64,000 nt of DNA from Pseudomonas sp. GM21. GTDB taxonomy: Bacteria > Pseudomonadota > Gammaproteobacteria > Pseudomonadales > Pseudomonadaceae. The stretch covers positions 1 through 64,000 of the forward strand of contig NZ_AKJS01000139.1 in assembly GCF_000282215.1 (NCBI RefSeq). The letters are read 5' to 3'. The translations under genes were made by a program, and so were the position numbers. The notes beneath the pieces are model-generated. The model ran no database searches. It was not told the DNA's origin and worked only from the letters and a program-made list of their open reading frames with translations. Shown one piece after another: positions 33,734 through 48,347 of this stretch (position 1 is the stretch's first letter; every line of letters begins with the position of its first letter).

Positions 33734-33810
33734 GGGCCTATAGCTCAGTTGGTTAGAGCAGAGGACTCATAATCCTTTGGTCCACGGTTCAAGTCCGTGT
33801 GGGCCCACCA
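33734..33810 (+). tRNA. tRNA-Ile2 with CAU anticodon (lysidine-modified type)
   Basis: A 77-nt tRNA with encoded CCA. The acceptor stem GGGCCTA pairs with TGGGCCC; the D arm has AGCTCAGTTGG and the T arm GGTTCAAGTCC. The anticodon CAT is at 33768-33770 in the loop CTCATAA. CAU reads as Met unless modified. The acceptor pairs C4-G69 and C5-G68 match the known determinants for lysidine synthase TilS in E. coli tRNA-Ile2 and differ from E. coli elongator tRNA-Met. I therefore call Ile2, which reads AUA; elongator Met is the alternative. Confidence 0.9.
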
Positions 33811-33842: not shown

Positions 33843-34224
33843 CGTATGCGACGTGTTGGTTTTCTTTAAGTTGTATGTCGCAGCTATCAGATGACGCCCG
33901 CCAAGGTTGTAGGCAACATCTGAGAATCGTGTGATGGGTGCATTTGGGCACTTTGCTGCCTTGTTGCGCTTTTGTTCGACGGGATACTCTCCGGACGTCA
34001 CTGCCAATGCAGTGATCGGGCTTGGAAACCCGTCGAATCAAAACGTAACAGCGCCCCTGATTACGATTGCATCAGCTTATCTGCAATCCTGAGTTATGGC
34101 AGCTGTGCGCGGGACGTCTTAGGGCGTGCCGGTTCCTTGATTCCCGGTTTTCCAACCTGCGCACAGCTGCCACCCATTCGCTTGGAAACGAAAGTGGCAT
34201 CTCCTCAAATCAAGGAAGTTGACC
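33843..34224 (+). other. Structured leader region before the DUF3077 gene
   Basis: About 380 bp without a gene. It holds several hairpins in series: CACTGC/GCAGTG (33999-34014, loop CAAT), CGGG/CCCG (34017-34032), then the 76-nt element described separately. The string GCTTGGAAAC occurs twice, once within the second hairpin and once near 34182 just before the ribosome site AAGGAAG. The layout suggests a regulatory leader RNA. Confidence 0.6.
34097..34172 (+). ncRNA. C4-antisense-RNA-like structured element
   Basis: Perfect 14-bp inverted arms (TGGCAGCTGTGCGC at 34097-34110, GCGCACAGCTGCCA at 34159-34172) enclose two small hairpins. One is ACGTC/GGCGT with loop TTAG; the other is CCGG/CCGG around TTCCTTGATTC. 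The total of 76 nt and the fold (one closing stem, two inner hairpins) resemble the phage C4 antisense RNA family, which is about 77 nt and also sits just upstream of the gene it controls. The family name is an inference from memory. Confidence 0.5.
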
Positions 34225-34518
34225 ATGAACAACCAATCAGAACTAAAAACCATTGGCTTCACGCCGTTCATATACTGCTCGGACCAGGCGTTGTTCAACG
34301 TCCGCCCCGGCGTCCCCATCGTCGAAGCATTGGCACAGGCCTCCGATCTGCTATTCCTGGCCAAGGCATTTGCCAAGGATGCAGCCTACACAAAGAACAC
34401 CGACCGCCATGCTTGGGCCGCGCATTACCTGACGGCGATGAGCAAAGCGGTAATTGATGATGTGGTGAAAGTGCTGACACCTAGACCTCCTCGTACCGAA
34501 ATGGAATCAGAGGAGTAA
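34225..34518 (+). CDS. DUF3077 family small protein
   Basis: This is a 97-residue soluble protein. FNVRPGVPIVEALAQASDLLFLAKAFA matches the DUF3077 family as I remember it, common and often multicopy in Pseudomonas. ATG 34225 is preceded by AAGGAAG at good spacing. The ends are polar and the centre helical. No function is known. It is preceded by a structured leader and followed by a terminator, so is its own transcription unit. It lies in a block of lower GC than the flanking core genes. Confidence 0.75.
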   Translation: MNNQSELKTIGFTPFIYCSDQALFNVRPGVPIVEALAQASDLLFLAKAFAKDAAYTKNTDRHAWAAHYLTAMSKAVIDDVVKVLTPRPPRTEMESEE

Positions 34519-34903: not shown

Positions 34904-35647
34904 ATGGCCGTGGGTAATTACATAGAAGCGGTTGAGATTATCCGGCGTCTGGAGGGTGGCATTACGCGTCCCTTCCTGTGCCGTGCCAGCAATGACAAGC
35001 ACTATGTGACCAAAGGGTTGGAATTGCCGCCCAGCGAGCGTATTGCCGAGCTGCTTTGTGCTCGCCTCGCCGCCCAATTCGGCCTACCGATCCCCGAACA
35101 TGGCTACATCTACATTGACCCTGCTCTGCTGCGCTACAACTTAGAGGCACGCAACGATCTTGGTCCAGGAGACAGCTATGCTCTGGCCTATGTAGCGGAC
35201 GCTGCCGACCTGTTGTACTCACAAGCACAGCAGGTTCCGAGTAACCTGCAAAAAGCCGTTTTTATCTTTGATTACTGGGTAGGTAACAGTGATCGTCAGC
35301 TAGGACCATTCGGTGGTCGCCCCAACCTACTGATGTGTGGAATTGATAATCAGCTTCAGCTGATCGATCACAACCAGGCGTTCAAATGGCCTCTGGATGC
35401 CCAAAAATTCGCGGAAAGCCATGTGTTTGGTCCGAGTAATCGAACCTGGAAACTGGATATGGTCGACAGAGTTGAATACAGCCAGCGGATGCACGACACT
35501 GCCATGCGATTTCATGACCTATGCTTGGACATACCCGATGAATGGCGTGAATCCATTGGCAAACGGGGGCTCGACATTCTGCTCGAAGAAATCGAAAGTA
35601 ACCTGATGCACTGCCAATCGGACGAGTTCTGGAGCGTCCTGCAATGA
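34904..35647 (+). CDS. HipA-like kinase (HipA_2 type)
   Basis: This 247-residue protein is shorter than classical HipA (about 440) and keeps the kinase core. FIFDYWVGNSDR (Asp123, Asn128, catalytic-type Asp130) and LQLIDHNQAF (metal-type Asp155) correspond to the HipA catalytic and metal motifs; Lys37 in HYVTKGLE is a candidate ATP-binding lysine. HipA proteins phosphorylate targets such as Glu-tRNA synthetase. No HipB-like helix-turn-helix antitoxin is adjacent; instead the gene overlaps a DUF3037 gene by 4 bp (ATGA). The pair could be a toxin-antitoxin-like or defence unit. Function is unproven. Confidence 0.78.
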   Translation: MAVGNYIEAVEIIRRLEGGITRPFLCRASNDKHYVTKGLELPPSERIAELLCARLAAQFGLPIPEHGYIYIDPALLRYNLEARNDLGPGDSYALAYVADAADLLYSQAQQVPSNLQKAVFIFDYWVGNSDRQLGPFGGRPNLLMCGIDNQLQLIDHNQAFKWPLDAQKFAESHVFGPSNRTWKLDMVDRVEYSQRMHDTAMRFHDLCLDIPDEWRESIGKRGLDILLEEIESNLMHCQSDEFWSVLQ

Positions 35648-36453
35648 AATATACCTGCCTTTACAGCATCGTGCGCTTCGCGCCTTTTGCCGAAACCGAA
35701 GAGTTTGCCAACGTCGGCATCGTTCTTTCGGCACCAGCGATCGGACGCATGGAGTACAGACTCGCCCGTAAAAATCTGAAACGGGTCAATCACTTCTTCG
35801 AGTGCAACAACCTATTCGCCAAAGCTATGGAAATAGCCCAGAACGAACTGGATAGCGTTCGCCTCATGACAACAGAGGCTCAAGAATCGCAGATCGTTAA
35901 CCATTTTCGTTACCTGACCGAGCCGAAGGAATCACTGATTCGCTTCAGTCCCATGCGCTCGATCCTGGTGGAAAATTTTGACACGACTCTTGCAACGCTT
36001 TTTAGCCGCTATATCGAGCGCCAAGGTATTGAACGTGATCGTCGTGAAGAGATGATGGTTCGAGAAATTCGAACCATGTTCTTGGAAGCATCAATCCGTA
36101 ATTTCCGCGATGACACCCTGATTGGTGATCTGACCAAACTACACCTGCCGCTGGTTCACCGTAATGAGGTAGTGGCCGCTATCAAGCCCTTGGCTTTCGA
36201 TCAGCCTGAGCCAAGCGCGATACTCGACCACTGCGATCAGTGGCTGATGAAGTTCGTACGCGCTGAAAAGGAAGGGATTATCCAACTGAAAAACGTACTA
36301 ATCCCCGTATCCGCCCCATCTGAAAATGAATCACCCCGCCACCGTAGAGCGGTGCACATCGCGAAAGCGAGCATCCAGGAGCGCGGCCTGCAGTTGGTCG
36401 ACTTCCAGGCGACCCAAGTAATTGCCGCCTTCGCGCAGAACTACGCTCAGTAG
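35644..36453 (+). CDS. DUF3037 family protein
   Basis: This 269-residue protein has the DUF3037 N-terminus (YTCLYSIVRFAPFAETEEFANVGIVL). It continues as a mainly helical, charged protein without signal peptide or membrane segment. It is translationally coupled to the HipA-like kinase upstream, a pairing I recall from other bacteria. It may be a partner, substrate or neutraliser of the kinase. The domain has no assigned biochemical function. The transcript ends at the terminator at 36498. Confidence 0.75.
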   Translation: MKYTCLYSIVRFAPFAETEEFANVGIVLSAPAIGRMEYRLARKNLKRVNHFFECNNLFAKAMEIAQNELDSVRLMTTEAQESQIVNHFRYLTEPKESLIRFSPMRSILVENFDTTLATLFSRYIERQGIERDRREEMMVREIRTMFLEASIRNFRDDTLIGDLTKLHLPLVHRNEVVAAIKPLAFDQPEPSAILDHCDQWLMKFVRAEKEGIIQLKNVLIPVSAPSENESPRHRRAVHIAKASIQERGLQLVDFQATQVIAAFAQNYAQ

Positions 36454-48173: not shown

Positions 48174-48198
48174 AAAAGAAAACCCCGCCGAAGCGGGG
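48174..48198 (-). terminator. Minus-strand terminator
   Basis: On the minus strand CCCCGC-TTCG-GCGGGG is followed by TTTTCTTTT. It lies about 190 bp after the stop of the acyl-CoA dehydrogenase gene at 48386 and may end that transcript. Confidence 0.8.
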
Positions 48199-48347
48199 CT
48201 TTGCAGACTGTTTCCCTGACATCCATTTCACTCCGCCGTCCTGGCAGAATCCTACGTGTCCGTGTTGTTGCTTTGCGCTTCCTGCGCGACGTCCGTGTAA
48301 TGAAGATTAACTGTGGATCCAATCTTCGCCTATGGGAGAACAGCAGC

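Follow-up and report, generated by a model that had tools for sequence, protein, structure and literature searches.

In phage P1, icd-ant comprises a short leader ORF that overlaps the main ORF, and in phage P4 the CI RNA, a short processed leader RNA, pairs with sites in its own transcript and acts on transcription termination. The C4 RNA represses Ant in phage, according to the portions of two reports that we consulted (PMC8546580, PMC12197685), and the c4-a1b1 motif (RF03163) was described by Weinberg et al. 2010 (PMC2864571) as the upstream a1 and b1 targets of C4. On a bacterial chromosome, Weiss et al. 2016 (PMC5320573) reported 21 C4-like RNAs, the Group 1 sRNAs of Acinetobacter baumannii, 15 of them full-length, with a GGW processing site and with RNA-seq evidence that they are cut from a longer transcript; in the sections consulted, the targets of these RNAs are left open. 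The literature searched, in the portions available to us, holds no account of C4 units in Pseudomonas, although some of the C4 sites may already appear in the supplement to Weinberg et al. 2010. The C4 RNA with a DUF3077 target that we describe here is real, and what is new is the existence of dozens of self-contained, nearly insulated C4 switches with predicted small-protein targets.

The window analyzed here is a stretch of 64,000 nt from Pseudomonas sp. GM21 (contig NZ_AKJS01000139.1 of assembly GCF_000282215.1), and all features of the unit lie on its plus strand. An earlier note, made from the letters alone, had pointed to a 76-nt element with perfect 14-bp arms, small hairpins and a repeated string, all of which are indeed present in the sequence, and had proposed that it is a C4-like RNA. 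The Rfam covariance model bears this out, as RF01695 matched at 34092-34177 above its gathering threshold (86.5 bits, cut-off 45, E 1e-15 over the whole window). The core of the element (34097-34172, 76 nt) has stems P1, P2 and P3; stem P1 is formed by 14 perfect pairs at its base followed by one G-U and two G-C pairs, for a total of 17 bp, and encloses two small hairpins. The fold of this core, at -46.6 kcal/mol (z = -6.3), was equalled by none of 200 dinucleotide shuffles. Upstream of it, a pair of hairpins at about 33998-34032 belongs to an RF03163 match at 33984-34036, which exceeds its cut-off of 46.7 by about 1 bit (47.7 bits). This c4-a1b1 element carries loop a1 (TTGGAAA, 34022-34028), with b1 (GAATCAA) at 34035-34041, and a putative sigma-70 promoter at 33961-33990 is predicted from a consensus match, with TTGTTG at 33961-33966 and the -10-like TACTCT at 33985-33990; its placement matches that in the 37 units with an a1b1 match described below. 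Within the C4 RNA, the single-stranded a' segment (TTTCCAA, 34149-34155) can pair through 7 bp (-10.5 kcal/mol) both with a1 and with a2 (TTGGAAA, 34182-34188), a short way past the core. Loop b' (TTCCTTGATTC, 34133-34143) can form 7 bp with b1 (-9.8 kcal/mol) and, over 34133-34142, 10 bp with b2 (AATCAAGGAA, 34208-34217; -16.0 kcal/mol), and b2 contains the Shine-Dalgarno-like sequence of the DUF3077 gene. The complementarity of b' to the ribosome site had gone unnoticed earlier. The repeated string, GCTTGGAAAC, occurs as exact copies at 34020-34029 and 34180-34189 because each copy contains one of the two targets of a'. The gene itself (34225-34518; PF11275, 112 bits against a cut-off of 21, E 1.3e-32) encodes 97 amino acids from an ATG at 34225, 52 nt past the C4 core. 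Judged by sequence, both membership in the C4 family and the anatomy of the unit are thus established.

With immI (c4-icd-ant) of phages P1 and P7 this locus shares the Rfam C4 fold, the a' and b' loops, the a1b1 element upstream and the a2 and b2 sites at the ribosome site. The target, however, differs: in immI, C4 controls the antirepressor gene ant, whereas the gene behind the C4 in the window encodes a DUF3077 protein, and Bro-N domains are found in only two of the 41 sister units described below. The Pseudomonas set is also chromosomal, with about 40 copies per genome, and its targets are DUF6124, DUF3077 and other small proteins. With Acinetobacter, Pseudomonas shares the presence of many chromosomal C4-like RNAs per genome; their targets are left open in the sections consulted on Acinetobacter, whereas complementarity and covariation here point each C4 to its own adjacent target. 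As for P4 CI, its pairing acts on transcription termination, whereas the target predicted from sequence for the Pseudomonas C4 is a ribosome site.

The covariation evidence comes from a protein search with DUF3077 in a species-genome collection, from which we took the best 80 of 142 relatives, all titled Pseudomonas. A C4 lies directly 5' of the DUF3077 gene in 78 of these 80 loci (four of the 78 were placed by eye) and was not found at L111 and L119; at L119, an a1-like hairpin upstream of 3001 sits directly before the ribosome site, as if the C4 had been deleted. The leaders were aligned with MAFFT as 69 distinct rows, the window and 68 others, leaving out 12 of the 80 loci (6 without a cleanly placed C4 and 6 identical duplicates). 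The proposed structure pairs 95.6% of the cells, compared to 36-46% when partners are slid by 1-3 columns, and changes on both sides of a pair were seen in 151 cells versus 45 in shuffles, a value reached by none of 500. Covariation was scored with five measures, two of which were weaker than the others, namely the number of pairs changed on both sides (13 versus 9.9, reached by 7 of 500 shuffles) and that of further pair types (39 versus 37.1, reached by 76 of 500). The three-stem structure of RF01695 is seen with compensatory changes: stem P1 is 99.1% paired, with both-side changes in 2 of its 17 pairs, P2 is 100% paired with such changes in 4 of 5, and P3 is 100% paired but invariant. The helix between a' and a2 is 99.4% paired and includes a switch from U-A to A-U in 28 sequences at one pair and from A-U to C-G in 19 at another, while the b'-b2 helix reaches only 82%, partly because MAFFT splits the loop. 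When pairing was measured without an alignment, each leader's own b' target gave 8.96 bp versus 7.10 bp for swapped targets (maximum of 5000 permutations, 7.80), and a' gave 7.03 versus 5.54 bp (permutation maximum, 6.23); these values are base-pair counts only, and they agree with the energy-based results. The proposal that a C4-type RNA is aimed at the ribosome site of the DUF3077 gene is therefore strongly supported by the covariance-model match, by complementarity, and by the compensatory changes that the earlier note had suggested looking for in related leaders.

What did not hold is the view of this C4 as a single element, as it is one of at least 41 above the cut-off in the same genome (6.6 Mb in 210 contigs), a count that is a lower bound given that 150 of 1766 first-look candidates were scored. 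Behind all 41 C4s there is a sequence resembling a ribosome site, and a start codon comes 39-57 nt past the end of the match. Pfam searches (E up to 0.01) assigned the main ORFs to DUF6124 in 25 cases, DUF3077 in four and Bro-N in two, and found no family match for the other 10. The genome has 33 DUF6124 matches against these 25 C4-linked ORFs, and some DUF6124 genes may therefore lack a C4; a fifth, weaker DUF3077 match (37 bits, G000:C112:53089-53271) coincides with none of the listed C4 sites. In three units (L009, L029, L011), the controlled ORF is by eye a short leader whose stop overlaps the start of the main ORF, an arrangement like that of icd-ant, and two units are broken, L026 by a frameshift and L041 by truncation. 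Stem P1 begins with (T/C)GG in 41 of 41 elements, and CCACC is found at the 3' end in 38; both are sequence signs that would fit a 77-nt RNA processed by an RNase P cut where P1 begins. The genome also contains 39 c4-a1b1 matches, 18 over and 21 under the cut-off, 37 of which sit 25-64 nt upstream of a C4. Two sub-cut-off matches (G000:C101:22051-22102 and C192:33652-33707) have no listed C4 adjoining them and could be decayed units or chance. The conserved start of the a1b1 motif coincides in Pseudomonas with a -10-like element, a difference from the motif as described, with T, A and T at places 1, 2 and 6 in 31, 37 and 31 of 37 units, and a -35-like box lies about 17-18 nt further upstream, its T being present in 36 of the 37. 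Based on these elements, the transcript should start at the a1b1 hairpins. Also seen 5' of the a1b1 region, in 17 of the 41 units, is a TGTTTAAACA-like palindrome (0-2 occurrences in one shuffled set), possibly a site for a shared regulator or a trace of duplication.

Bro-N-like proteins are encoded by two C4 units per genome, L014 and L043 here (by Pfam) and those at G005:C1:2521054 and 3201382 in a second genome (by similarity). L014 matches phage anti-repressor PHROGs. The L043 protein has a DUF6124-style start, MIKVTPNPPE, ahead of its Bro-N domain, as though a module made up of C4, ribosome site and initial codons had become joined to different proteins. Among ten neighbouring genes searched with Pfam, chosen from the 36 units with a long downstream ORF in a way that favoured recognizable ones, we found SAICAR synthetase, TerC, RlmJ, a LysR regulator, Hcp and a VgrG-like protein, and only one of the ten had no match; at least these units, then, adjoin ordinary genes. 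Type VI secretion genes adjoin three units, namely Hcp at L022 and a VgrG-like GPD domain at L039, both by Pfam, and L041 by eye.

Each of the 41 units has its strongest a' helix (6-9 bp) immediately past the C4 and its strongest b' helix (6-12 bp) close to the ribosome site. The combined a' and b' energy averages -27.1 kcal/mol for own targets and -17.7 kcal/mol for swapped ones, and the own mean was reached by none of 20,000 permutations, the best of which gave -19.9. A C4's own target ranked first in 31 of 41 rows and not first in ten. With a two-helix threshold that was set after the own-pair values had been seen, 33 of 41 own pairs pass, eight fail, and only 9 of 1640 cross pairs pass, so that at the sequence level matching between units is rare. 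Pairing with upstream a1 and b1 shows the same preference (own -25.9, swapped -20.1; no permutation out of 20,000 did as well, and the own target led in 19 of 41 rows). These energies refer to gap-free helices on the loops only, with stacking values that are approximate in the tests of both genomes and of the viral targets discussed below (some G-U stacks were approximated, with a default of -1.0); as the minimum-energy fold differs from the C4 fold for several elements, P3 was first fixed in the interval from P2 to the 3' arm of P1, and the loops were read off from there. RNAduplex, run on pieces that contain the stems, gave no own-target signal downstream (own first in 3 of 41), a result that we ascribe to the weight of long gaps and of stem bases rich in G and C.

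A second, complete genome (G005) behaves alike. It contains 42 C4s, 39 of them over the cut-off, and the 40 fetched for the pairing test gave -26.9 for own and -15.5 for swapped targets, the own mean being reached by none of 20,000 permutations, with the own target first in 34 of 40; 29 of 40 own pairs but only 13 of 1560 cross pairs pass the threshold. Between the two genomes, 17 and 18 of 1640 pairs pass, orthologues included. At G005:C1:3628832-3630617, three C4 units stand in tandem about 850 nt apart, the first two sharing a' and b' and the third differing in both. Ten unit pairs of the two genomes were tested for synteny. In eight of them the flank matches on one side or both, and these were compared at single-base level; L023 and L021 matched only over the unit itself and were left out. 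Alignment extends over the full 6.1 kb at L032 and over 5.7 kb at L014, is patchier in the flanks of L012 and L016, and covers one side at L039. Across these eight pairs the C4 scaffold is largely conserved. In five of them (L014, L032, L043, L035, L012), b' and its partner at the ribosome site were, by eye, clearly replaced together; the b' code is partly changed in L016 and L039 and unchanged in L046. Such turnover is to be expected of a code whose two sides have to fit each other inside a unit, whereas from one unit to the next the code can differ freely or is even driven to do so. The proteins, on the other hand, are conserved, since all 29 protein pairs of at least 70% identity from the two genomes have a dN/dS below 1 (median 0.11; the pairs are not independent, as several share a partner), and on this measure the C4-linked ORFs are under purifying selection.

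We are therefore highly confident that the window element is a true C4-family RNA within a compact, probably self-silencing unit, one of at least 41 with private codes. From the order of the unit, which runs promoter, a1b1, C4, a2 and b2 with the ribosome site, and small ORF (DUF3077 in this case), we infer how it might be transcribed and processed, how it might repress, and what a1b1 and the protein might do. A single transcript would begin just 5' of a1b1, and the C4 part would be excised from it, with RNase P as the probable enzyme cutting where P1 begins. The 7 nt of a' would then dock on a2 of further copies of the same mRNA, the 10 nt of the b' loop would cover their ribosome site, and the protein would stay off unless C4 is titrated, unprocessed or absent. 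The 5'-terminal a1b1 element probably serves as a decoy and thereby determines the threshold. Each unit's private a'/b' code would address its own gene, and a code that changes fast on both sides around a conserved protein is what would be expected if units silence themselves and not each other. More tentatively, and with somewhat less than an even chance in our estimation, resident units might silence only themselves, with codes selected to diverge, whereas an incoming unit whose code is foreign would come on, so that the genome would hold dozens of insulated switches working as a self/non-self code. If this were true, an immunity RNA of phages would have been turned into a rapidly changing self/non-self code that controls a large family of uncharacterized small proteins. 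At any rate, a known phage immunity RNA recurs on a single bacterial chromosome in about forty copies, each with its private code and a target next to it; DUF3077 and DUF6124 gain a candidate regulator and a testable logic, and the set supplies dozens of naturally occurring, nearly orthogonal RNA-RNA pairs in which to study how antisense specificity evolves without cross-talk.

A layout in which an RNA silences a small ORF, repeated in many paralogues with rare cross-matching and placed beside ordinary genes, would also suit modules with an RNA antitoxin, similar to type I toxin-antitoxin systems, where the small proteins are harmful and each C4 is a private antidote. We regard this explanation as rather unlikely, a one-in-several prospect. 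In type I systems the antidote is transcribed independently, whereas the C4 in the window lies in cis, inside the leader of its own target; moreover, two units encode Bro-N proteins, which are antirepressor-like rather than toxin-like, and PADLOC returned nothing for six of the C4-linked proteins. Structure neither names nor excludes a toxin, as AF2 models DUF3077, with modest confidence (mean pLDDT 69, residues 1-26 below 50), as a hairpin of two helices that has no PDB match at E below 1. Against NCBIfam, DUF3077 produced only FabZ noise below the cut-off, and five other proteins produced no match. Profile comparison of DUF3077 with DUF6124 gave E 0.0009 and a probability of 23%, which is only suggestive of relatedness, and a third group of proteins resembles neither of the two by the same method; DUF6124 is not named in the literature searched.

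It is also conceivable that chromosomal C4s serve as immunity banks that silence incoming phage or satellite mRNAs carrying matching a2 and b2 sites, one of two ideas put forward for Acinetobacter in the consulted sections of Weiss et al. 2016 (PMC5320573). Pseudomonas phage records do carry C4 units. In three of them a ribosome site and a short ORF come after a C4; in phiAH14b and Phipami28 this ORF, translated by eye, resembles the L011 leader, and in vB_Pae_U10 the C4 unit is part of a 10-kb record with annotated integrase, excisionase and primase. Viral contigs were sampled with a single pattern for the C4 arms, which identified 69 loci with 67 complete C4s, 62 of them distinct, whose first ORFs are mostly short leaders (about 17-38 or 48-66 aa), the others being DUF3077, DUF6124 or unassigned. 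When the 41 chromosomal C4s were compared with these 62 viral targets, however, 19 of 2542 pairs passed (0.75%), versus 9 of 1640 (0.55%) among chromosomal units, and 33 of the 41 C4s matched no viral target. As viral targets are matched about as rarely as chromosomal ones, a general immunity bank is not favoured, and every C4 has in addition a well-placed target beside itself; we therefore consider this role improbable. Fourteen of the 19 matches come from three C4s (window 6, L014 4, L029 4), so that these few units, on complementarity grounds, may cross-react with units in viral contigs. When viral contigs were scanned with a spaced pattern for the window C4 target, the matches listed seem to be mostly due to chance, and they were left unused.

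Whether DUF3077 is a domesticated phage-type gene, as the earlier note had it, receives mixed answers. In its favour, two PHROGs, neither with a known function, match the DUF3077 protein (best E 4e-11), and Bro-N proteins are encoded behind two sister C4s. Against it, tblastn with two DUF3077 proteins retrieved nothing from 50,697 phage records, and two DUF3077-bearing viral contigs whose ORFs were inspected (L308, L265) contain by eye host-like as well as phage-like genes, so that they do not prove DUF3077 to be a phage gene. The L014 Bro-N protein had no relative in the viral contigs searched, and a 52-aa leader had no tblastn match in phages.

Outside this strain, RF01695 exceeds its cut-off in 109 of 119 sampled Pseudomonas genomes, with a median of 13 copies, at least 10 in 73 genomes and at least 33 in 17, while among other genomes of the class 11 of 228 carry 1-4 copies. 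DUF6124 counts track those of C4 (Spearman 0.88 in 59 genomes), and the family is absent from all five C4-less genomes among these 59. In P. putida KT2440, the DUF3077 gene PP_RS01475 is annotated as a pseudogene, and its frame was regained in furfural-evolved strains, as described in the portion of the source consulted (PMC9630843). That the units were left behind by prophages or satellites as dead remnants that play no role today, as this pseudogene, the frameshifted L026, the truncated L041 and the tRNA-linked variable site of the window might suggest, is very improbable in the face of the joint replacement of both code sides, the dN/dS values below 1 in all 29 (non-independent) pairs, and the ten or more copies in 73 of 119 genomes.

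The site in question is defined by a tRNA gene (33734-33807) that directly precedes the C4-DUF3077 unit of the window. It is variable in nine relatives (L129-L137), with a C4-DUF3077 unit nearby in G005 and G011 and a DUF3077 gene about 3 kb further on in G002; in the remaining relatives no C4-DUF3077 unit was seen, or the tRNA was missed by the pattern. On the 3' side, the unit is followed by genes for a HipA_2-like kinase and a DUF3037 protein (34904-36453), and the window also contains the small RNA RsmY on the minus strand (48179-48296, 124 bits).
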